NCBI GenBank assembly: GCA_016867135.1
Contig: VGKH01000006.1
Coordinates: 1 to 44,179 of the forward strand
Reading direction: 5' to 3'
DNA from: Candidatus Omnitrophota bacterium
GTDB lineage: Bacteria; Omnitrophota; Gorgyraeia; VGKH01
DNA length: 44,179 nucleotides
Part shown: in pieces, positions 20,328-34,257 of the stretch
How positions within the stretch are numbered: the stretch's first letter is position 1
How the letters are laid out: every line of letters begins with the position of its first letter
Translations under genes and position numbers: made by a program
Notes under the pieces: model-generated
Databases searched by the model: none
The model's input: only the letters and a program-made list of their open reading frames with translations
Told to the model about the DNA's origin: nothing

Positions 20328-21467
20328 TTAGTTTATCAGTTTTTGAGCCTGCGCTCTTGCCCATTTATCAACAGAAATAATCTCGTTTAAACCCGGATTT
20401 CTTAAAACTTTGTGCCTGGATAAAACAGAATTTATAATCCTATAGATATCTAAATATCCTATTTTCTCTTCTAAAAAAGCTCCTACCGCTATTTCATTTG
20501 CAGCATTTAAAACGCAAGGCGCGGTGCCTCTAAGCCTAGCTGCCTTATAAGCCAAGCCTAAACAAGGAAATTTGTCAAAATCCGGCTTATCAAAAGCAAG
20601 ATTGAGGCTTTTAAAATCTAAAGACTTTAATACTCCCTTCCAGCGCGCCGGATACGTAAGAGCGTATTGAATAGGGAGCCTCATGTCGGTAACTCCCAGC
20701 TGGGCGATAATTGAACCGTCAATGAATTCTACCATAGAATGCACGATAGCTTCCCGATGAATAAGAATTTCTATCTGTTCCGGCTTAACATCAAACAACC
20801 ACATGGCTTCAATCAACTCTAAGCCTTTATTAATTAATGTGGCTGAATCTACCGTAACCTTCTTGCCCATTTTCCAGCGTGGATGTTTTAAAACTTCTTT
20901 AACAGAAATATTCTTTAATCTGCTAACTGGCGCATCAACCAAAGGCCCTCCGGAAGCAGTCAGATAAATCTTCTTTAATTCCTTTTTGTTTCTATCCTGA
21001 AGGCACTGGAATATCGCGCTCTGTTCGCTGTCGATAGGTATAATCTGAGTATTATATTTTTTGGCCTCTTTCATAATAATGGAGCCAGCCATAACTAAAG
21101 CCTCTTTGTTGGCCAAGGCAACAGTTTTTCTTTGCCTTATCGCTTCCAGGACCGATTCAAGAGCGCTGCTTCCAGAGATGGCAACAACTACCAAATCAAT
21201 ATCTTTGGAAGCGATCATATTCTTTAAACCAGAATTTGTATCACAAACTTTAATCCTGCCATTAATATCTTTTCTTAAGGCTGAAATCTTATCTTCTCTT
21301 ATAGCAACGTATTCAGGGCTATAATCCTTAATTTGGCTTCTTAATAATCCTATATTATTATAAGCGCTAAGCCCTATTACTTTAAGCCTGTCGGAAAATT
21401 CCGAGACAATATCCAATGTGTTTTGTCCGATGGAACCAGTCGAACCCAAAACTGCTATATTTTTCAT
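20328..21467 (-). CDS. dxr: 1-deoxy-D-xylulose 5-phosphate reductoisomerase
   Basis: NADPH-dependent rearrangement of DXP to MEP, the committed MEP-pathway step. It is 379 residues: NADPH-binding GSTGSIGQNTL (about 8-18), ALANKEALVMAG (about 117-128), metal and substrate segments PIDSEQSAIFQCL, TASGGPL and the HPRWKMGKKVTVDSATLINKG region split over about 190-210. The ATG overlaps the cdsA stop as ATGA, implying coupling. Confidence 0.97.
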   Translation of the reverse strand: MKNIAVLGSTGSIGQNTLDIVSEFSDRLKVIGLSAYNNIGLLRSQIKDYSPEYVAIREDKISALRKDINGRIKVCDTNSGLKNMIASKDIDLVVVAISGSSALESVLEAIRQRKTVALANKEALVMAGSIIMKEAKKYNTQIIPIDSEQSAIFQCLQDRNKKELKKIYLTASGGPLVDAPVSRLKNISVKEVLKHPRWKMGKKVTVDSATLINKGLELIEAMWLFDVKPEQIEILIHREAIVHSMVEFIDGSIIAQLGVTDMRLPIQYALTYPARWKGVLKSLDFKSLNLAFDKPDFDKFPCLGLAYKAARLRGTAPCVLNAANEIAVGAFLEEKIGYLDIYRIINSVLSRHKVLRNPGLNEIISVDKWARAQAQKLIN

Positions 21468-22270
21468 GCTAGCACCGTACTCATATAGAAATAGAAAGCC
21501 GGGATAGTAAACAAAAGGCTATCTATCACATCCAAAACCCCGCCAATCCCGGGGAAGATTGCTCCAGAATCTTTTGCTTGGCAATTACGTTTTATTAACG
21601 ATTCAGACAAATCGCCAAGTTGACCCAAAATACCGAAAAACATTCCCAAGGCAAGTAAATGAAAATTGGAGAAAACTGCCTTTTCTGGCAAGAATGATTT
21701 ACTGGCTAACGCGGCTAAAACAGAAAAAACAATAGCGGCAATAGCCCCCTCTACCGTTTTCTTTGGACTAATCCGAGGAATCAAGGCCCTCTTTCCCCAG
21801 CGCGAACCAATAAGGTAGGCCCCAATATCCCCAAATTTTGTAATCAACACTATAGCCGCAACTAAATTAGCTCCATAAGGCAAAAACCTTAATTTTATGA
21901 TAAAGCTAAAAAACCACGCTATGTAGAGAATCCCGAATACCGTAGTTGAAATACTCACCACCGCTTGAGATTCTTCTCTTCTGGTAAACTGCAAAAGAAA
22001 AATAGCTAATAACGTTAAAACTATAAAAAGCAATTCCCAATTCTTGGTAAGCTCGAATCTAAAAGTAATAGACAGAGGGATAATTACTCCAATTGCCATG
22101 CCAAAATATTTATATACGTAAATGCCCTGTCTTTCGATTAATTTGAAGAATTCATAAAGCCCTCCAACAATCAAAAAAATTGCAAAGACAGGGCAAAACC
22201 ATTTATAGATAATGGCCAACATCGTAATCGCTACTAAGAAAATTGAGCTCAGTATCCTTTTTGTCAACAT
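21464..22270 (-). CDS. cdsA: Phosphatidate cytidylyltransferase
   Basis: Integral membrane enzyme making CDP-diacylglycerol from phosphatidate and CTP. It is 268 residues with about seven hydrophobic segments. The C-terminal signature region SLIKRNCQAKDSGAIFPGIGG is present (about residues 222-242), followed by VLDVIDS. The classical signature has GHGG and DR at the positions that read GIGG and DV here; the Lys-Asp pair is kept. It lies between uppS (4-base gap) and dxr (overlap). Confidence 0.93.
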   Translation of the reverse strand: MLTKRILSSIFLVAITMLAIIYKWFCPVFAIFLIVGGLYEFFKLIERQGIYVYKYFGMAIGVIIPLSITFRFELTKNWELLFIVLTLLAIFLLQFTRREESQAVVSISTTVFGILYIAWFFSFIIKLRFLPYGANLVAAIVLITKFGDIGAYLIGSRWGKRALIPRISPKKTVEGAIAAIVFSVLAALASKSFLPEKAVFSNFHLLALGMFFGILGQLGDLSESLIKRNCQAKDSGAIFPGIGGVLDVIDSLLFTIPAFYFYMSTVLA

Positions 22271-22274
22271 ATCT

Positions 22275-22985
22275 CTATTTTGATACTATATCCCCAAAAC
22301 GTCTTTGTCTTGACTGAAAATCTTTAATCGCATCTAATAAATCTTCTCTATGGAAGTCAGGCCAGAATTTCTTGGTAAAATAAAGCTCTGCGTAGGACAG
22401 CTGCCAGAGAAGAAAATTGCTGATACGCATTTCCCCAGAGGTGCGTATCAAAAGATCGGGGTCTGGCGTATCGGCGGTATATAAGAATTCAGAAAAATTA
22501 TCTTCGTTAATCTGCTCAATATCGTTTTTTTTCATTAATATTGATTTTGTCATCTTTTTAGCCGCGTCGACTATCTCGGTTCTTCCCCCATAGTTAAGAG
22601 CTAAGTTTAAGGTAAGCCCGGTGTTGTTTTTAGTAAGTTTTTGGGTATTTCTTAATTTCTCGATGATATTCTTCGGGATTGGATCTTCCCTTCCGATAAC
22701 TCTCAATCTAATATTATTTTTATTTAACTCGGCTAGCTCCCTATCAAGGAATCTTTCTAAGGCTCCCATCAACATGCTGATTTCTCTTCTCGGCCTTTTC
22801 CAGTTCTCTGTGGAGAAAGCAAACAAGGTTAAATACTTGATGCCGATTTCATTGGCTACCTTAACTATTTTCTTAAAATTATCAATCCCTGCCTTGTGTC
22901 CGGCTGCGCGAGGCAGGCCTCTTTGTTTCGCCCATCTGCCATTACCGTCCATGATTATTGCTATATGCTGAGGTAAAGTCTCCAT
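22275..22985 (-). CDS. uppS: Isoprenyl transferase (undecaprenyl diphosphate synthase type)
   Basis: Cis-prenyltransferase making the C55 lipid carrier for peptidoglycan and LPS. The 236-residue protein shows IAIIMDGNGRWAKQRG near the N-terminus (catalytic Asp in DGNGRW), AGHKAG, FAFSTENWKRP, and the C-terminal DLLIRTSGEMRISNFLLWQ with PDFHREDL. It is the first gene of the long downstream run; a terminator lies just upstream at 23020-23045, so a transcript probably begins between them. Confidence 0.96.
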   Translation of the reverse strand: METLPQHIAIIMDGNGRWAKQRGLPRAAGHKAGIDNFKKIVKVANEIGIKYLTLFAFSTENWKRPRREISMLMGALERFLDRELAELNKNNIRLRVIGREDPIPKNIIEKLRNTQKLTKNNTGLTLNLALNYGGRTEIVDAAKKMTKSILMKKNDIEQINEDNFSEFLYTADTPDPDLLIRTSGEMRISNFLLWQLSYAELYFTKKFWPDFHREDLLDAIKDFQSRQRRFGDIVSK

Positions 22986-23019
22986 ATATCCGTTTTGTAT
23001 AATTTATTAGCTTTCACTA

Positions 23020-23045
23020 AAATGGGGGATATCTATCCCCCATTT
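23020..23045 (-). terminator. Intrinsic-type terminator hairpin after the coiled-coil gene
   Basis: A perfect 11-bp stem, AAATGGGGGAT with ATCCCCCATTT, closes a 4-base loop. It lies about 65 bases downstream of the 23111-23467 gene and just upstream of uppS. The A/T-rich base of the stem could serve transcription from either side; a true U-tract is weak (TTTTAG on the minus strand). Confidence 0.75.
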
Positions 23046-23110
23046 ATGAAAAATGACTTAAGTGTAATTAGAAAGATTAATAAAATGAAAAAATCATAGA
23101 ATTTGAGATG

Positions 23111-23467
23111 TTACTGCCGGCATCTAACCAAGGCCTCTTTTAAATTGTTCTCAAGCGCCTGCTTCAGCTTTGTCATCTTCTCAAGCTCCAGCCTTAGTTC
23201 TTGATTTATTAAATTCTGGTCCTCCAACTGCTTATTCAAACCTTCGATGTTCGCCTGGGCATTCTTAAGCTGGCTTTCAATTGATTCCATTTTGGGAGTT
23301 AAATTTACCAATTTCTCTTCGTTTTCCAGGCGCAATACCATCTCTTTTTGAAGAGCTTTCTTGCTATTCTGGGAAGATATGCTTGCACTAATTGCCAATA
23401 CTAAACACATGATAGTTAAAATAACGAGGGCAATCATAATCCTATCTTTAAGCTGTTCATCCAACAT
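23111..23467 (-). CDS. Small single-pass membrane coiled-coil protein, function unknown
   Basis: A 118-residue protein with one hydrophobic segment (about 10-30) followed by a continuous heptad-rich, highly charged coiled coil to the C-terminus (LEKMTKLKQALENNLKEAL and similar). I do not recognise a family. It lies 49 bases after the OmpA-like lipoprotein and before a strong hairpin, so the two probably form a two-gene transcript. A periplasmic tether or division-associated role is possible but not shown. The only purine-rich ribosome-site candidate is 17 bases from the ATG, so the start is less certain. Confidence 0.75.
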   Translation of the reverse strand: MLDEQLKDRIMIALVILTIMCLVLAISASISSQNSKKALQKEMVLRLENEEKLVNLTPKMESIESQLKNAQANIEGLNKQLEDQNLINQELRLELEKMTKLKQALENNLKEALVRCRQ

Positions 23468-23516
23468 ATAACTTGTTTAATCCCCCTCTCTAATCTAATA
23501 ATCTAGGAAAAGAAAT

Positions 23517-24182
23517 TTACTTTAAATTCTCTTCTGGTTCTTCTAATGCGCTCGGGGTCATGGCTTTCTCGGCGCCTCTTGCTTTAACAAACTTCGGCAG
23601 AATTATTATCTCAACTCTTCTATTCATTTTTCTGCCTTCAGGATTATCATTTGGAGCTACAGGCCTGAATTCTCCACAACCAATAGCAGATACTTTCTCA
23701 GGAGCTAATCCTTTTTTGTCAATTAAATAATGCAAAACACTCATTGCCCTGGCACTGGATAATTCCCAATTTGATTTCCAGCCAGAATATTTGATAGGCT
23801 GATTATCGGTGTGACCTTCTATGCCGATTTCCATATTAGGTACTTCCTGTTGTATAACACCAGCAATTTTATCTAACGCGGAGTAAGCCTCTGAGCGTAT
23901 CTTAGCCTTCCCGGAATCAAACAGAACCTCAGCTACAAAGGTAATAACCAGCCCTTTGTCGGTTAACTCTAAACGAACTTGCTTGTCGGCGATTTCCTGC
24001 CTAAGTCTGTCTTCCAGGAGCGACTTCGTGCTCTTTAACTGGCTTAATTGGTCTTCCAACGCGCCGATCCGTTCGATATCCGAACGTCTCCCCTTTTGGA
24101 ATATTATGGTGCAACCCACTAATCCCAAACTAATTATTATAATTACAAATAGATGAAAAAACCTTGCTATGCGACTACTCAT
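23517..24182 (-). CDS. OmpA-like peptidoglycan-binding lipoprotein
   Basis: From the preferred start at 24182 (consensus GGAGG just upstream; the frame is open to 24230) the protein is 221 residues. It has a lipoprotein signal with lipobox LVGC (acylated Cys at 24), a short coiled coil (about 35-65) and a C-terminal OmpA/MotB domain with EGHTDNQPI, NWELSSARA and NRRVEI motifs that grip peptidoglycan. The domain is closest in look to MotB, but the lipobox and the lack of a plug or motor helix favour an outer-membrane tether like Pal. It heads a cassette with its own promoter at 24221-24249. Confidence 0.88.
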   Translation of the reverse strand: MSSRIARFFHLFVIIIISLGLVGCTIIFQKGRRSDIERIGALEDQLSQLKSTKSLLEDRLRQEIADKQVRLELTDKGLVITFVAEVLFDSGKAKIRSEAYSALDKIAGVIQQEVPNMEIGIEGHTDNQPIKYSGWKSNWELSSARAMSVLHYLIDKKGLAPEKVSAIGCGEFRPVAPNDNPEGRKMNRRVEIIILPKFVKARGAEKAMTPSALEEPEENLK

Positions 24183-24220
24183 AGCTAACCTCCTTTTTTT
24201 GGCTTTTTTGGATAAGTTTA

Positions 24221-24249
24221 ACAATAACACAACCCATTCTCAAAGTCAA
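24221..24249 (-). promoter_or_regulatory. Sigma-70-type promoter for the OmpA-like lipoprotein cassette
   Basis: On the minus strand, TTGACT (24249-24244) and TATTGT (24226-24221) are separated by exactly 17 bases. The promoter lies between the purA stop and the lipoprotein start, about 40 bases upstream of the ATG. It is the best promoter-like sequence seen on the minus strand. Confidence 0.65.
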
Positions 24250-24256
24250 GGACTTA

Positions 24257-26781
<2,525 letters not shown>

Positions 26782-26794
26782 ATGCTTCTCCTTT

Positions 26795-28567
26795 TTATTT
26801 TACAATCTTCTCTAGCTCTTCCACGGGAGTATCTTCCTTGACGCCGAATATTTCTTGATTATTCAAAAGAAACAAAGGCCCATAGGAAACTTTAAGTTCT
26901 GCAACTAAGCCAATATTCTCCCTTAAGAGCTCCACTGATTCTTCCGACTCAATGCATTTTTTTATTTTATTCGCATCTAGCCTCAGGCTCTTAGAGCAAA
27001 GAGAAAGACTATCTTTGCCTAAGTTATCAATATGACAAAACATATATTCCCACATCTTTTTAGGGTATATTGACATGACGCATAATGCTTGTTTATCTTC
27101 TGCAATTTCAGCGTCTCCGAATGGAGCGCTAAAATTACCTAATTTATTATCTTCTGCGGCTAAGAAATGGATGTTAAAATCGATTTTTCTACCAACCCTG
27201 CCAATCAAATCTTTAGTTTTCTCTAGCGTCTTCTTTGCAATTTTATCCCTCAGGCTTATGAATAAATCCAGCCTATTATTTTGTACAGGCCTATCTAGAA
27301 AATACGATACTCCGACGATAAAAGGATTAAGAAAATAATAATTATCCCTTTCTACTACGGTATGGCTGCTTGAAAAATATGGATAATTAGGGTGCTTGGA
27401 TATTTCTTTTGATACTATATAAATAGGCAGCATGTTAACGTCTAGTTTTGCAATGATTTCTTTTGCCCTTGGACTTTCGCTATCAAGATAATTGACCTCT
27501 CCTACAGGGAAGCGGGTTCCGATCATATCCAGGGTGCTTTGGATATTGCAAGTCTTGCATATCTTAGGAACTATTATAGTCAAATTGACCTTGGCAATCG
27601 GCTCATAAACACAGGCAGCATTTTTTTCTCCTGCATCTTTACATTTTCCGATAAATCCTGGCTTATAACATTCCGGATCTCTAAAGCAGGCAGGTAAGAA
27701 AGAATTTATCTCTTCGTCGTCAGCGATATCCTTACTCATAGGGATATTCTTTTTAACGGAATTTGTAATTACGCCATTTTCTACATCAAGCTCTAAAAGC
27801 CCCAAAGTCCTACCCCACTGAAAAGGCGTCAGATATATAGCAGAATTTAACTTTTGAGGCAGGCTCATATCCGTCTCATTGCTAATAATAATATCGATTC
27901 CTGCGACTTGCTCTGCAACCTGCTTATCCAGATCTTTTCCTAACTGGCTCAATAATACTATAATATCTACTTTCTTCTTTAGGATACTTACGTTTGCCTG
28001 GATTTTCTTCAATGCTTCCGAGGCATCCTCTTTGAATTCAAAACCTCCGGCAGTCTTTATTCCCAGAGGCGAGATACCGATGATCCCGATTTTTATTTTG
28101 CCGACCTTCTTAATCATATAAGCCTGAACTTTAGGCAAATCCAAATTGCACGATAAGAATTTAATTTTCTTTTGTTTAACCTTATCCAAAAGAAAATCCT
28201 TTCCGAAATTAAACTCATCAGCACCGATATTGACGGCATCGTAACCCATGATTTCCATACCCTTAAAATAGATCTCTGTGCGTTTCTTGTCCATCTCGGG
28301 AGTCGTGGCATCAATATCTTGCAGGCCAGAAGCGAAGAAATTTCCGCTGTCAACCAATAAAATGTTCGGATAGTCTTTTCGAAGTTGTTTTATCTTTGTG
28401 GCTCTACGGGCAATCCCGCCGTCGGGAGCTGCCGGGCAATGACAAGCATACAAACTTGCAGATGTATTTCCCGTATAAACTATGGCTATCTTCTCGGCGA
28501 ATACTAAATTACAAGAAAACAATAAGCCAAAACATGCTAATATTGCCGGCAATAATCTACTCTTCAT
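26795..28567 (-). CDS. Exported metallophosphatase-fold / thioredoxin-like fusion, probable pseudo-phosphatase
   Basis: A 590-residue exported protein (signal peptide to about 24). Residues 25-285 follow the UshA/SoxB-type metallophosphatase layout, but the ligand positions look replaced: the usual ND.HG reads GNTSA, the second motif reads SGN, GNHEFD reads GADEFN, LSHLG reads LSQLG and the final G-H-x-H motif reads SNETD. A CHCP motif (42-45) follows motif I. A four-Cys segment (294, 300, 309, 319) leads into a thioredoxin-like domain with KICKTC (Cys 337 and 340) and a likely cis-Pro at about 381. A second thioredoxin/GILT-like domain (about 460-590) has Cys 496, 511, 524 and 538 but no CxxC. 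A DUF1573-CcdA protein precedes it by 9 bases. A periplasmic thiol-redox role is inferred. Confidence 0.75.
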   Translation of the reverse strand: MKSRLLPAILACFGLLFSCNLVFAEKIAIVYTGNTSASLYACHCPAAPDGGIARRATKIKQLRKDYPNILLVDSGNFFASGLQDIDATTPEMDKKRTEIYFKGMEIMGYDAVNIGADEFNFGKDFLLDKVKQKKIKFLSCNLDLPKVQAYMIKKVGKIKIGIIGISPLGIKTAGGFEFKEDASEALKKIQANVSILKKKVDIIVLLSQLGKDLDKQVAEQVAGIDIIISNETDMSLPQKLNSAIYLTPFQWGRTLGLLELDVENGVITNSVKKNIPMSKDIADDEEINSFLPACFRDPECYKPGFIGKCKDAGEKNAACVYEPIAKVNLTIIVPKICKTCNIQSTLDMIGTRFPVGEVNYLDSESPRAKEIIAKLDVNMLPIYIVSKEISKHPNYPYFSSSHTVVERDNYYFLNPFIVGVSYFLDRPVQNNRLDLFISLRDKIAKKTLEKTKDLIGRVGRKIDFNIHFLAAEDNKLGNFSAPFGDAEIAEDKQALCVMSIYPKKMWEYMFCHIDNLGKDSLSLCSKSLRLDANKIKKCIESEESVELLRENIGLVAELKVSYGPLFLLNNQEIFGVKEDTPVEELEKIVK

Positions 28568-28576
28568 ATTCCACCT

Positions 28577-29731
28577 CTATCTAATAATGATTAAAAGAAA
28601 CAAACCTAGGGCAAAGAAAAGCAATGCCGTTAGTAATTTTATTTTCGCAAGATGTCGCTGGGCTAATTTTGCAAAAACCTGGGAAGTTACTCCCCATAAA
28701 GCAAACAAGAATATTATAAGCAAAGGCACGATAAACATAAGATTATATAACATCAAATACATCCATGCCTTAGTTTTTAATTCCGGCATCTTCATTATAT
28801 AGACTATCGTCGGTAGATACAACTGGCCCGTACAGACAGATTCCAAGATTGATACAATAAATCCGCAGCTTAACGCAGTAAAAGCCAAGCGTATAAGATC
28901 CCTGCTTTTGGTAGCGTCTTTCCTGTCATCTGTCTTTTCTCTGATAGTCTCTTGAATTTTCCTCTTGATAATCCCGGGAAGTTTTAATTTTATTTTCTCG
29001 GCATCTTTGGTCTTATTGAAAATCCACCAATCGTACAAACTTATTGCTCCTAAAATCAAAGCGAATATAGCAACTACGATGTAAATAATTTGAGACACTA
29101 AATTAAATATCGCAATTCTCCTTAAGAATTCAAAAAGCCCCAGACCCAACCCCAGATACGTTAAAAATACGGCTAAGATAAAGAATAATCCCAAAATTAC
29201 AGTCTGCTTACGGTTATAACCTGCGAATGCTAGGAATGAAATAAAGAATATGAGAACTGTAAAGGCGCAGGGATTTATACCGTCAATTAGACCGGCCGTG
29301 ACAATTGTCAGCCAACTAAAAGATTTAAACCGCTCTAAAATAACTGCTTTCTCGGGGCGTATATCAGCCAAAAGCTTGATAGTCAAAAGCGGCTGTTTAG
29401 GATCATTAGTATTAATGAAAATGTATTTTACCGTCGGACCTGTGAAACCGGTTGTATCAAATTGAAACAATATAGTTAATTTCTCTTTAGGCGCAAGTTT
29501 AACTGACCCTGAAGGCTCAACAATCTTAACGCAGCCGCAGTCCACCCTTAACGGCTCAACTGCCAACTCCGTGTCTCCAGAATTCTGCACTACAAAGGAA
29601 TATCCATAGACTTTGCCTTCCGCCATTAAAGGCAGTTCAAAAGTCTTTTCTTTAACTGCGATTTGAGGAGCGGCAAAAACATTAGTTGTAATTAACAGAA
29701 CTAAAAGCGTAAAAAATATTAGCTTTTTCAT
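28577..29731 (-). CDS. DUF1573 domain fused to a CcdA/DsbD-type membrane thiol transporter
   Basis: A 384-residue protein: signal peptide (1-20), a DUF1573 immunoglobulin-like periplasmic domain (about 25-122) with the characteristic DCGC (64-67), then a membrane domain with six or more hydrophobic helices. The membrane part carries the two cysteines expected of CcdA-type reductant carriers: GINPCAF (C155) and SVCTGQLYLP (C300). Such carriers pass electrons from cytosolic thioredoxin to periplasmic thiol proteins. The adjacent CxxC-bearing fusion protein is the obvious partner. The gene starts directly after the stop of the small upstream gene, so the three form an operon. The specific client is unknown. 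Confidence 0.85.
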   Translation of the reverse strand: MKKLIFFTLLVLLITTNVFAAPQIAVKEKTFELPLMAEGKVYGYSFVVQNSGDTELAVEPLRVDCGCVKIVEPSGSVKLAPKEKLTILFQFDTTGFTGPTVKYIFINTNDPKQPLLTIKLLADIRPEKAVILERFKSFSWLTIVTAGLIDGINPCAFTVLIFFISFLAFAGYNRKQTVILGLFFILAVFLTYLGLGLGLFEFLRRIAIFNLVSQIIYIVVAIFALILGAISLYDWWIFNKTKDAEKIKLKLPGIIKRKIQETIREKTDDRKDATKSRDLIRLAFTALSCGFIVSILESVCTGQLYLPTIVYIMKMPELKTKAWMYLMLYNLMFIVPLLIIFLFALWGVTSQVFAKLAQRHLAKIKLLTALLFFALGLFLLIIIR

Positions 29732-29947
29732 TTATCTTGTGCACCTGGCCTTTATCTCTTTGGACATCGCTTCTATCTGTTTTAGAATCTCTGTTTGTTG
29801 TATTAGTATCTTATCCAATTTTTCCGTTATTTGAGAACCTAGTATGGAGCCTGAAGCCGTATCTTGGGCAGAAATATTCTTAAAAAAAGAAAAATATATT
29901 GCTAAAAACACTAATAGAACAATAAAAAGCAAATTTACTTTCCTCAT
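29732..29947 (-). CDS. Small single-pass membrane-anchored protein
   Basis: A 71-residue protein from the preferred ATG at 29947, which has a GGAGGGG ribosome site 9 bases upstream; the frame could begin at a TTG at 29971. One hydrophobic N-terminal segment (about 4-22) is followed by a helical, coiled-coil-like tail rich in Ile, Gln and Glu, ending KARCTR. No family is recognised. It sits between serA and the DUF1573-CcdA gene with no gap to the latter, so it is probably a small accessory subunit of that redox unit. Confidence 0.7.
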   Translation of the reverse strand: MRKVNLLFIVLLVFLAIYFSFFKNISAQDTASGSILGSQITEKLDKILIQQTEILKQIEAMSKEIKARCTR

Positions 29948-29976
29948 CGTGTCGTGCCCCTCCAATCGCAAATTTT

Positions 29977-31557
29977 TTATAGCTTGATTACCTTCGCAGA
30001 AATGATATTTTCAGACTTTTTAATCTTCTCTAACACATCTGCCGGCACCGGGCTATCGACATTGATGACGGAAATTGACTTGCCGCCGGCTTCTTTCCTG
30101 CCAAAAGTCATCGCGGCGATATTGATTTTATTGTTCCCGAGCAATGTTCCCACGGCGCCGATAATACCCGGCTTATCCTGATTATGGATGATTATCATAT
30201 AACCTTGCGGGATCGCTTCTACATAATAATCCTCTATCTTTACTATTCTGGGCTTATTATTGCTTGAAAGGGTTCCGCCTACAGTCAATTTTGTTTTATC
30301 AGTCAAGACATCCACTGAAATGAAATTTACAAATTCTTCCTCGGTTTCAGACTTTGCCTCCTGGATCTTTATCCCTCTTTCCTTGGCCAGGCTAAGCGCA
30401 TTAACAAAATTGACCGTCTCTTGGACGACCGGCTCAAGGAATCCTTTTACCAATGCCATGGTTAAAGGCTCAGTCCTCTGCTGGGTTATCGGACCGCTAT
30501 AATTTATATCCACCTGTTTTATCCTTCCTTCTGCCAGCTGGCTAGACAATTGCCCTAGTTTTTCGCAAAGATTAATATAGGGCTCCAAAACTTTGAAAGT
30601 CTGGGGATCAACCGAAGGATAATTTGCCGCGTTTCTGACACCCCTGCCTAAAAGCGCGTCTCTTACCGCCTCGGAAACTTCAATGGCAACATTTACCTGC
30701 GCTTCTTCGGTAGATGCCCCTAAATGCGGAGTCAAGACTATATTGTCCAGCTTCAATAAAGGAGAGCCGGTCGGTGGCTCATTTTCAAAGACATCGATTG
30801 CAGCTCCGGCGATTTTCTTTGACTCAAGGGCTTTAGCCAAAGCCTGCTCGTCGATAATCCCGCCTCTGGCGCAATTAATAATCTTTGTCGTTGGTTTCAT
30901 AAGCGCAAACTCTTTATCGGAAATCAGATGCTTTGTTTCATCGCTTAGAGGAGTATGTATCGTGATGTAATCGCCGCGGGATAAAACTTCTTTTAATTCC
31001 ACGACTTCTACGCCCATCTGCTTTGCTACTTCAAGAGAAATAAAGGGATCAAAAGCAATAACCTTCATCCCGAATGATAACGCCCTTTTGGCAACCTCTG
31101 AGCCTATCCTTCCTAAGCCCACAATGCCTAAAACCTTGCCGTAGAGCTCAGTGCCCATAAATTTTGAACGCTTCCATTCTCCGGCTTTTAGGGATGAGCA
31201 TGCCTGCGGGATGCTTCTTGATAAAGATAAAATCATGCTCATAGTATGCTCGGCGGTAGAAATAGTATTTCCTCCCGGCGTATTCATGACGATGATGCCT
31301 CGGGCAGTAGCTGCTTCTAAATCTACATTGTCCAATCCCACTCCGGCACGGCCGATGACTTTAAGATTGCTAGCGGCATCAATTATCTCTTTAGTTACTT
31401 TTGTCCCGCTTCTTACCACAAGCGCATCATAATCCTTGATAATCTGCTTTAATTCTTCGGGTTTGAGTTCGGTCTTAATATCAACCGTAAGCTCTTTCTC
31501 TTTTTTAAGTATCTGCACTCCCTCATCCGATAGTTTATCGCTTATCAAAACCTTCAT
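29977..31557 (-). CDS. serA: D-3-phosphoglycerate dehydrogenase
   Basis: NAD-dependent oxidation of 3-phosphoglycerate, the first step of serine synthesis. It is 526 residues, the long type: a catalytic and NAD domain (1-310; GLGRIGSEVAKRA, NCARGGIIDE, TPHLGAST with the catalytic His), an intervening ASB domain (about 320-450) and a C-terminal ACT domain (about 452-526, IIHNQDKPGIIGAVGTLL). The ACT domain suggests serine feedback. The gene follows the class V aminotransferase by 35 bases, which gives the pathway's first two steps in order. Confidence 0.97.
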   Translation of the reverse strand: MKVLISDKLSDEGVQILKKEKELTVDIKTELKPEELKQIIKDYDALVVRSGTKVTKEIIDAASNLKVIGRAGVGLDNVDLEAATARGIIVMNTPGGNTISTAEHTMSMILSLSRSIPQACSSLKAGEWKRSKFMGTELYGKVLGIVGLGRIGSEVAKRALSFGMKVIAFDPFISLEVAKQMGVEVVELKEVLSRGDYITIHTPLSDETKHLISDKEFALMKPTTKIINCARGGIIDEQALAKALESKKIAGAAIDVFENEPPTGSPLLKLDNIVLTPHLGASTEEAQVNVAIEVSEAVRDALLGRGVRNAANYPSVDPQTFKVLEPYINLCEKLGQLSSQLAEGRIKQVDINYSGPITQQRTEPLTMALVKGFLEPVVQETVNFVNALSLAKERGIKIQEAKSETEEEFVNFISVDVLTDKTKLTVGGTLSSNNKPRIVKIEDYYVEAIPQGYMIIIHNQDKPGIIGAVGTLLGNNKINIAAMTFGRKEAGGKSISVINVDSPVPADVLEKIKKSENIISAKVIKL

Positions 31558-31592
31558 TAAACTTTCCCTCCGTCCTGAAATTTTGTTTTGAA

Positions 31593-32741
31593 TTAGCCTG
31601 AGACCTTTTTTGCAGCTGCGACTCCGCTCCCCTTTTTGATGTTCGGATGCTGTGTAAAATATCCCATTTCATCCAAAACCGTCTCCATCGTGGTCAGGGC
31701 TAAAATTATATCATCCTTATTTATGTAACCCATATGGGCTGCGCGGAAAACCTTTCCTTTTAATTCCGATTGTCCCCCGGCAATGGTAACGCCATATTTA
31801 TCCTTCATGGTCTCTACCATCTTCTCTCCGTCGAGACCCACAGGAACGTTTATCGCGGTTACAGCGTTGGACATACAATTGGCATCGGCAAAAAGCGTAA
31901 ATCCCAAAGCTTTTGCTGCGCTTCTGATTGCCTCTCCCATAAGTTTGCAACGCTTGAAAATATTCTGCAAGCCCTCTTTCTGCATAATCTTTATACTCTC
32001 ATTTAAGGCGATAACAAGCCCTATCGCCGGAGTCCAAGGCGTATCGGTCTTATCTAATGCCTTTTTGGCGGCTTTCAAATCAAAATAATATCTTGGCGAT
32101 TTTGATTCTGCGACTAATTTCATAGCTTTAGGGCTAACACTTATCAATCCCAAACCCGGCGGAAGCATAAGACCTTTCTGGGAACCGGAAACTACTACGT
32201 CTACTCCCCAATTATCGGTCTGGATATCAACTGCTCCTAAACCACTTATTGCGTCGACTACTAAACAGGCGGATGTATTTCTCACCACTTCGCCCAGCGC
32301 CTTTATATCGGTATCAACGCCGGTCGAGGTTTCGGTTAAAGTGGCATATACTACCTTAATATCTTTATCGGCATTTAACTTTTCAGCTATAACCTTGGGA
32401 TCAACTGCTTTTCCCCAAGGAACATCCACGACTATGGAAACAGCTTTATAGGCTTTACAAAGCTCAGTCCATCTCTCGCCGAATTTTCCTCCCTGGATAG
32501 TTATGGCTTTATCGCCGGGAGAAAGTAAATTAGCCACTGCTGCTTCCATCGCTCCAGTTCCGGATGAGGCGAGAATAAACACGTCATTTTTAGTCTGAAA
32601 AATCTCTCTTAGACCTTGCTCTGATTCCTTGAGGACCTGTTGAAATTGCGATGTCCTGTGATGAATAATCGGTCTTGCTAATGCCTCGCGTACCTGTGGA
32701 GGTATCGGCGTCGGCCCCGGTGTCAATAAACGCTGTTCCAC
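31593..32741 (-). CDS. Class V PLP aminotransferase (alanine/serine-glyoxylate type), probable phosphoserine aminotransferase
   Basis: A 382-residue fold-type I aminotransferase with the small-domain start LLTPGPTPIPPQV, the LSSGTGAMEA-like SSGTGAMEAAV cofactor loop, the VVDAISGLGAVDI segment and the PLP lysine in SGSQKGLMLPPG (about 190-201). Sequence looks like the alanine-glyoxylate aminotransferase family. Its position directly before serA suggests it supplies phosphoserine from phosphohydroxypyruvate, since no canonical SerC is visible; this is inference. It starts with GTG, with a GAGG ribosome site upstream. The last 20 residues form a Lys/Ala-rich tail. Confidence 0.88.
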   Translation of the reverse strand: MEQRLLTPGPTPIPPQVREALARPIIHHRTSQFQQVLKESEQGLREIFQTKNDVFILASSGTGAMEAAVANLLSPGDKAITIQGGKFGERWTELCKAYKAVSIVVDVPWGKAVDPKVIAEKLNADKDIKVVYATLTETSTGVDTDIKALGEVVRNTSACLVVDAISGLGAVDIQTDNWGVDVVVSGSQKGLMLPPGLGLISVSPKAMKLVAESKSPRYYFDLKAAKKALDKTDTPWTPAIGLVIALNESIKIMQKEGLQNIFKRCKLMGEAIRSAAKALGFTLFADANCMSNAVTAINVPVGLDGEKMVETMKDKYGVTIAGGQSELKGKVFRAAHMGYINKDDIILALTTMETVLDEMGYFTQHPNIKKGSGVAAAKKVSG

Positions 32742-32750
32742 TTTCTTACC

Positions 32751-33356
32751 TCACTTTTTCTTGGTTGATGCGATTACCTCATCAATTAATCCGTATTCTT
32801 TTGCTTCTTCCGGAGACATAAAATAGTCTCTGTCTGTATCTTTTTGGATTTTCTCCAAAGGCTTGCCAGTATGTTGGGCAAGGATTTCGTTAATCTTATC
32901 TCTTAAGCGCAAAATCTCTTTAGCCTGGATAGATATATCTGCTGCCTGGCCACGAATGCCGCCCCATGGCTGATGAATCATAATCCTGGAATGCGGAAGC
33001 GCATAGCGCTTGCCTTTTGTGCCTGCGGCAAGAAGAAGCGCGCCCATACTTGCCGCCTGGCCCACGCAGTAAGTGCAGACATCGGGCTTAACAAACTGAA
33101 TCGTATCATAAATAGCTAATCCCGCAGTCACAAGACCGCCTGGAGTATTAATATAAAGATTTATATCTTTATTCACATCCTCCATCTGCAAAAAAAGCAT
33201 CTGCGCGATAATTAAATTTGCCACATTATCATCTACGGGAGTCCCGACAAAAATAATTCTATCTTTAAGCAAGCGCGAATAGATATCATATGCCCTCTCT
33301 GCCCTGCCTGTCTGCTCCACGACTATCGGTACCAGGGTTTGCATTCTCTCGTCCAT
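32751..33356 (-). CDS. clpP: ATP-dependent Clp protease proteolytic subunit
   Basis: Serine peptidase of the Clp degradation machine. It is 201 residues, with the catalytic Ser in [14 protein letters not shown], the His in [11 protein letters not shown] and the Asp in [11 protein letters not shown]. The N-terminus [19 protein letters not shown] is typical. It follows trigger factor (1 base between them), the classic tig-clpP pair, but clpX is not downstream; an aminotransferase follows instead. Confidence 0.97.
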
Positions 33357-33357
33357 A

Positions 33358-34257
33358 TTAAGCCCCTCCTTCTTCCTGCCATTTGGCTTCCTTTAATAAA
33401 AATTCCATGACCTTTGCCGTTTTATGTTCCGGCTTGCCAACCTTTATATTTTCAAGTTCCGCAATTTTATCCAGGATAAAGTATAATTTAACATCGTTTA
33501 ACGCTAGCGGCTTTAATTTCTCCCTCATAGTCTGTTCTTTAGATTCAATTTCCTCTTTTTTGACTCCTTGCTGAGCCATGCGATGTTTTGTATCCTCTAC
33601 CAAATAATCTAATTGCTTGGCTAAAGAGCTCTGCGGGATTTCCAATTCAGAATTCTTAAGCAACTGTTCCGCTACTTGATTTTCTACGTCGTTTCTCGCC
33701 TCCTGTTGCTTAGAAAGCTCCATCTGGCTTTTTATCGTCTCCTCTAATTCTTTAAGATTAGGATAGCCCAGTCCTTTGGCAAAAGAATCATCAATCGGAG
33801 TCTTATCATCCAAGCCCTGTGATTTACGGATGAATTCAAAACTCTTTTTCAAATCCTCGTCGGTAACACTGACTTTCTTCCTTTTTACCTCAACACCCTT
33901 GTATTTCTTGATTTTTACTTCCGGCACGACCTCAAAGGAAGCCCTAAACGAAAGCCCGCCATCCTTGAACGACACATCAGAGACCTCGGGTAAATTTACC
34001 GGCATTAAATTCTCTTTTTCCAGGGCTTCTTTATAAGAATTAGGGATCAAATCTTTTAGGACCTCTTCTTTCGCTAATTGGCCGTGTTCTGATTGGACCA
34101 AATGCAGCGGTGCGGTTCCGGGGCGAAAACCCTTAATCTGGGCTTTCTTCTGGATCATTTTATAGATTTCATCAAATTTCTTCTCCACGACATCTTTGGG
34201 GATATCAATGATCATTTCTCTTTTGCAGGCATCAATTTTCTTGACAGATGTATTCAT
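33358..34257 (-). CDS. tig: Trigger factor, short form without the PPIase domain
   Basis: Ribosome-associated chaperone binding nascent chains at the exit tunnel. The ribosome-docking signature KGFRPGTAP (about 42-50) and the N-terminal domain (1-115) are clear, as is the C-terminal helical arm domain. At 299 residues it is well below the usual 420-450: after [17 protein letters not shown] (about 130-146) the sequence passes directly to the arm helices, so the FKBP-type PPIase domain is missing. The adjacent clpP confirms identity. A chaperone without prolyl isomerase activity is inferred. Confidence 0.92.

Follow-up and report, generated by a model that had tools for sequence, protein, structure and literature searches.

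A candidate outward-facing thiol-reductant relay in Omnitrophota: a DUF1573-CcdA-like membrane protein and a UshA-like protein that has lost its metal ligands

The window analysed here is a stretch of 44,179 nucleotides from a Candidatus Omnitrophota bacterium (GCA_016867135.1, contig VGKH01000006.1, positions 1 to 44,179). Three genes, P1, P2 and P3, are packed on its minus strand. P1 (29732-29947) encodes a 71-amino-acid protein with an N-terminal signal or anchor and a short helical tail; its start is either the ATG at 29947 or a TTG at 29971, which would give 79 amino acids. P2 (28577-29731) encodes 384 amino acids, an exported DUF1573 domain followed by a CcdA-like membrane domain, and P3 (26795-28567) an exported protein of 590 amino acids in which a UshA-like domain is followed by a four-cysteine segment, a thioredoxin fold and a DsbA-like fold. 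The gap between P1 and P2 is 0 bases and that between P2 and P3 is 9, and the reading frames, lengths and spacing given in a first-pass annotation all held. P2 and P3 are the candidate partners of a redox relay.

Residues 23-291 of P3 (27695-28501, minus strand) form a degenerate UshA/SoxB-like metallophosphoesterase domain, the fold that had been proposed. The domain matches the NCBIfam profile NF041198 (UshA_like_PCGU, 'UshA-like (seleno)protein') with an E of 3.5e-37, scoring 128 bits against a cut-off of 275 and over the N-terminal half only. It also matches the SoxB profile TIGR04486 (E 1e-23; 83.5 bits, below the cut-off of 550) and profiles from the PDB. The AlphaFold model of P3 has a predicted local distance difference test score (pLDDT) of 93.9 and its fold match is to the CD73/UshA 5'-nucleotidases, at an E of about 1e-21. 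The nucleotidase C-terminal domain is missing. We assigned the metal-ligand positions by alignment with solved nucleotidases and counted their conservation in 60 homologues. UshA holds its two metals with D41, H43, D84, N116, H217 and H252; the P3 of the window has N, S, N, A and Q at the ligand sites and no histidine, and none of the ligands examined is kept. The equivalent of D84 is an aspartate in one of the 60 homologues and that of N116 an asparagine in four, while no histidine is among the residues listed at the position of H117. This loss of ligands would rule out P3 as an active nucleotidase or phosphatase.

What the domain has gained is a CxC motif, C42-H-C44 (28436-28444, minus strand), the counterpart of the CxU in NF041198. 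C42 is conserved in 58 of the 60 homologues and C44 in 57, and the pair sits in the loop that follows the first strand, within the region of the ancestral metal site. In surveys of selenoproteomes the UshA-like family appears with a CxU motif (PMC2398784, PMC13188914). The first-pass annotation had cast the phosphatase-like fold as a substrate- or partner-binding module, and recorded neither this CxC, nor the CxC of the DUF1573 domain, nor the segment from C294 to C319. Because the metal ligands are lost and the domain carries the more conserved redox pair, it is probably not just a binding module.

A second CxC lies in P2. The DUF1573 domain (residues 25-117; 29381-29659, minus strand) has a PapD/HYDIN-like immunoglobulin (Ig) fold and belongs to PF07610 (E 2.9e-11; 43.7 bits, above the gathering cut-off of 26.1). 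It also matches the OS_HP2 (seleno)protein profile NF041425 (E 5e-14) and at 52.4 bits falls below the cut-off of 100 for membership; a Foldseek search with P2 returned the HYDIN PapD-like domain at E 5e-8. The motif, C65-G-C67 (29531-29539, minus strand), is invariant in all 12 complete P2 proteins and is the counterpart of the UGC/UxC of selenoprotein relatives. Selenocysteine in the DUF1573 family is listed as UGC or UxC in the same surveys (PMC13188914, PMC2398784).

The membrane domain of P2 (28580-29338, minus strand) has two putative redox cysteines, C155 in an NPCAF motif (29267-29269) and C300 in an ESVCTGQ motif (28832-28834), both invariant in 22 aligned homologues. A profile-profile comparison with PF02683 members, for which the references were canonical Omnitrophota CcdA proteins and E. 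coli DsbD, aligned 204 columns (P 5e-5; the control, an unrelated membrane protein, gave 0.6). It placed C155 on the PC motif and C300 on the PCT motif of CcdA/DsbD. CcdA/DsbD domains have about six helices, the first and the fourth each with a redox cysteine in a PC motif; the alignment puts P2 in line with this plan, and its helices are modelled with low confidence. By these alignments the membrane domain is CcdA-like, a divergent paralogue, and together with the PF07610 match they uphold the DUF1573-CcdA fusion, with C155 and C300 as its membrane cysteines, that had been read from the sequence. A structural search with P2 matched the Ig part alone and returned nothing for the membrane domain, and a sequence search of the PDB with the membrane domain matched no membrane-carrier chain. 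Small homologues of this domain with degenerate cysteines also occur (L256-L258 and L260, 258-269 amino acids). The homologues of about 260 amino acids (L256-L260) were considered as classical CcdA and rejected, being degenerate and outside the Pfam CcdA family.

Among named families the membrane domain matches ArsG best (NF040495; E 5.6e-6), as do 18 of the 22 homologues. P3 might then handle a chalcogen, metal or metalloid: thiophilic ions, or species of sulfur or selenium, would be bound at CxC/CxU in the UshA-like and DUF1573 domains, and the CcdA-like protein would act as an ArsG-resembling transporter. CxC motifs can bind soft metals, and some forms of the UshA-like domain, the single-chain fusions of family f19 and the cytochrome-type proteins described below, keep some metal ligands beside the CxC. 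However, the ArsG match reaches 25.9 bits, far below the cut-off of 200 for membership, P3 proper has lost the ligands, and we noticed no arsenic or mercury genes in the flanks read. The two CcdA cysteines and the fusion of related domains to CxxC thioredoxins point to electron transfer instead, and we regard a metal-handling role as improbable.

Beyond the UshA-like domain, P3 carries four cysteines, C294, C300, C309 and C319 (27611-27688, minus strand), kept in 60, 60, 60 and 58 of the 60 homologues, which probably form two structural disulfides. The first thioredoxin fold follows (residues 325-425; 27293-27595, minus strand). Its profile matches are weak (PDB E 0.006-0.02, the best natural match at 0.006); the model gives it a pLDDT of about 87-97 and a beta-alpha-beta pattern. 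The KICKTC site picked out at first reading is there as the CxxC C337-K-T-C340 (27548-27559, minus strand), with C337 kept in 55 and C340 in 56 of the homologues, and the cis-proline P381 is invariant in them. The second fold (residues 428-590; 26798-27286, minus strand) is DsbA/GILT-like, with structural cysteines and no CxxC; among 30 members PF01323 was matched in 9, at best with 9.4e-8, and GILT in 6. Residues 325-590 are thus thioredoxin-like as had been suggested, by the model and by weak thioredoxin and DsbA profile matches, with the CxxC and cis-proline of such a fold, but they make up two folds rather than one. In one relative (L173) P3 reads on into a frame of 925 amino acids at the position expected for the HMGL-like gene, which may be a fusion or a sequencing error.

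These folds invite another explanation, in which the main task of P3 is to isomerise or reduce disulfides of exported proteins, much as DsbC or DsbG does. The two thioredoxin folds would do the chemistry at C337/C340, with the UshA-like domain binding clients and P2 keeping P3 reduced. The CxxC is kept in about 92% of homologues, P381 never varies, the second fold resembles DsbA and GILT, and in two genomes (G028 and G044) the chromosomal slot of P3 is filled by a version with the thioredoxin part alone. The behaviour of two families argues the other way. P3 of family f45 has no CxxC any more, yet the CxC of the UshA-like domain and the cysteines of the CcdA-like domain are kept, as is the CxC of DUF1573 wherever P2 is complete, and P3 is still paired with P2. 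In family f19 the UshA-like domain is joined directly to a thioredoxin and CcdA-like domain, and the P3-type C-terminus is missing. We therefore consider an isomerase unlikely, though less so than a metal-handling protein. Because f45 keeps both CxC sites without the CxxC, electrons need not pass through C337/C340, which by this pattern is not an obligatory acceptor. The path from the membrane protein to the thioredoxin fusion that had been proposed is accordingly supported in its pairing of the two proteins and not in its use of this site.

The distribution of the genes separates the three. P1 has homologues at 50% identity within its genus and a weak one in a further genome (G032, E 7e-4), and no others were found; P1 is limited to two families and is absent where SerA and P2 abut or overlap. 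It is an accessory, lineage-specific gene, and with P2 also apart from P3 in most relatives, the first-pass view of the three genes as a unit is ruled out. P3 itself is an old, class-wide gene. It lies in a fixed slot, ClpP-AGXT-SerA-(P2)-P3-HMGL-PurA, and in the window the flanks are SerA (29977-31557) and the HMGL-like gene (25546-26781). The closest named relative, 'Candidatus Omnitrophota bacterium isolate RA.bin136', shares 71% identity in P3. The wider neighbourhood (21464-34257), with a trigger factor-like gene, ClpP, AGXT, SerA, P3, the HMGL-like gene, PurA and an OmpA-like gene, is a serine-biosynthesis and housekeeping region kept in many Omnitrophota families and a useful syntenic marker. 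Two genomes have a shortened P3 in this slot, the thioredoxin part without the UshA-like domain (L034:5373-6410 in G028 and L044:5550-6422 in G044). Searches of plasmids gave no informative context.

P2 adjoins P3 in 12 of 86 distinct P3 proteins. These come from four separated lineages (f1 with f32, f12, f45 and f46), in which the adjacency persists at roughly 35-45% identity, so the pairing is either old or has arisen repeatedly. Genomes whose P2 does not adjoin P3 usually encode, elsewhere, a CcdA-like protein that bears a CxxC thioredoxin at its N-terminus, often beside or fused to a CxC DUF1573 domain. Among 285 genomes of the phylum, a CcdA-like protein is found in 75 of the 79 that carry the UshA-like domain, as against 41 of 206 that do not (Fisher p 2e-33, phylogeny ignored); leaving out the fused and adjacent cases, about 60 of 64 carriers still have one. 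The genes are thus routinely apart, which had been named as grounds for rejecting the link; this holds for adjacency and not for co-occurrence.

The modules have also been fused repeatedly. Six genomes of family f19 encode a single chain, UshA[CHC]-Trx[CxxC]-CcdA[NPC, CTGQ] (Trx being thioredoxin), with every site intact (for example L038, 709 amino acids). DUF1573 is fused to or adjoins the Trx-CcdA pair in both orders, as DUF1573-Trx-CcdA (L082, L261) and as Trx-CcdA-DUF1573 (L083, L266, L269, L270, L274), and it is fused to thioredoxin in L092. P3-type thioredoxin repeats are joined to CcdA in L039, L042 and L265, and in another class Trx-CcdA adjoins a protein of P3-type thioredoxin folds (L263, L264). 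One such protein (L042:996-4334, and in L043) has 1113 amino acids, with repeated P3-type and CxxC thioredoxin folds ahead of a CcdA-like membrane domain. Co-occurrence and independent fusions converging on the same CcdA-like protein bear out the functional link between the DUF1573-CcdA-like protein and the P3-type protein. That dozens of genomes conserve the observed features shows that these go beyond chance.

The adjacency of P2 and P3 could still be chance operon packing, with P3 using another electron donor or none and P2 serving other clients. In most relatives the slot has P3 without P2, the genes around it are housekeeping genes, and a canonical CcdA lies elsewhere in the genome. Against this, the adjacency persists in four diverged lineages, UshA-Trx-CcdA fusions have formed separately and the co-occurrence is strong. 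Chance packing seems to us the least probable of the explanations weighed here.

We consider it likely, with a probability of roughly 0.6, that P2 and P3 work together as an outward-facing relay for thiol reductant, of the same kind as DsbD, CcdA and ScsB. Electrons from cytoplasmic thioredoxin would enter the CcdA-like membrane domain through C155 and C300. They would leave the membrane through a thiol module, the DUF1573 CxC in P2 or a thioredoxin CxxC in most relatives, and pass to the CxC in the UshA-like part of P3, a domain that descends from a metallophosphatase and now has a redox cysteine pair in its active-site region. The thioredoxin folds of P3 may be auxiliary, used for exchange or docking. 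What is finally reduced is probably a disulfide, a persulfide or another oxidised sulfur species outside the cytoplasm. The data show the identities of the domains, the conservation of every cysteine pair, the loss of the UshA ligands, the co-occurrence and the repeated fusions; from there we infer the direction and order of electron flow, the direct contacts between partners and the substrate. Known relays that run from CcdA, DsbD and ScsB to thiol proteins of the periplasm are comparable (PMC5403849). Selenocysteine occurs at the corresponding motif in the families of both partner domains, which lends the relay further support. Selenocysteine is the usual mark of a redox-active residue.

Several observations weigh against the relay. 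Pfam DsbD_TM (PF02683) matched the membrane domain in none of the 22 homologues at E 0.1, although it does pick up canonical members elsewhere in the genome, and the structural model of that domain is poor (pLDDT 69). P2 and P3 are apart in most carriers, four carriers of the UshA-like domain have no clear CcdA-like match, and the genome's one canonical CcdA could serve P3. That genome (G000; C78, C10, C51) has two further genes of the DsbD_TM family in addition to the canonical CcdA.

Other roles and contexts fit less well. Cytochrome c maturation is unlikely because this genome and most carriers lack the assembly genes (PF01578). VKOR-coupled oxidation was rejected, no VKOR being found in carriers, this genome included. 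A Sox-like pathway was set aside too: P3 stays below the SoxB cut-off and SoxY was not found in 59 genomes, including this one, by a search that had no positive control. The Sox or cytochrome c surroundings that had been envisaged are thus not apparent.

A genome of another Omnitrophota class (G068) has a tandem DUF1573 gene directly next to the gene of a UshA-like protein that carries a PCGC motif and ends in a tetrahaem cytochrome c (L126:1360-3977). This protein matches both halves of NF041198, at 223 bits against the cut-off of 275. From this one case it seems that the UshA-like domain and DUF1573 belong together while the electron source varies. It raises a broader possibility, drawn from this one cytochrome-type locus and the shared selenocysteine motifs, that DUF1573 (CxC/UxC) and the UshA-like domain (CxC/CxU) make up a general and so far unrecognised redox pair outside the cytoplasm, in which a hydrolase has become an oxidoreductase. 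Electrons would be fed to the pair in a modular way, by a CcdA-like protein and thioredoxin in Omnitrophota and a multihaem cytochrome c in other bacteria, and it would act on inorganic or thiol-bound sulfur or selenium species. We offer this as a tentative extension that is more doubtful than the relay itself.

The UshA-like (CxU) and DUF1573/OS_HP2 (UGC) families are two (seleno)protein families without an assigned function, here tied by neighbourhood and fusion to a CcdA-like carrier, which gives both a testable role. The results also suggest how a phosphatase fold can become a redox protein, and that a CcdA-type carrier may be dedicated to a job other than cytochrome c maturation in organisms without the assembly genes. 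They also add to the DsbD-like composites one that has a new partner. In the open-access literature searched we found no paper joining these proteins and no named system with such a layout, as had been supposed.

P3 shares with NF041198 proteins the UshA-like domain and the CxC/CxU motif, followed by GG and basic residues, and L126, the only relative with the full architecture that was found in the phylum, adjoins a tandem DUF1573 gene. That relative ends in a multihaem cytochrome c, whereas P3 ends in thioredoxin folds and its 128 bits lie below the cut-off. P2 has the same Ig-like domain as OS_HP2/DUF1573 proteins (NF041425), with cysteine at both motif positions, but is fused to a CcdA-like membrane domain and scores 52 bits against a cut-off of 100. 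SoxB is the best-scoring characterised family after NF041198 and shares its metallophosphoesterase fold with UshA/CD73 and P3; P3 differs in its lost dimetal ligands, in having no nucleotidase C-terminal domain and in that no SoxY was found by the uncontrolled search. With ArsG and its ArsF-like thioredoxin the likeness lies in a weak match of the membrane domain to ArsG and in the CxxC thioredoxin domain of the relatives; the score is far below the cut-off, however, and no arsenic genes were noticed nearby.

The closest parallel in plan is with DsbD, CcdA and ScsB, in which a membrane domain with one cysteine pair is likewise fused to thioredoxin and to a cysteine-bearing Ig-like domain. DsbD is built from an Ig-like alpha domain, a membrane beta domain and a thioredoxin gamma domain, and DUF1573-Trx-CcdA is alike in plan. 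In contrast, the membrane domain here falls outside the PF02683 model, the Ig-like domain is a PapD/HYDIN-like DUF1573 with a CxC, the thioredoxin is N-terminal to the membrane domain and the partner is a converted UshA-like protein. The parts are thus in or near known families, and the composite plan resembles that of DsbD.

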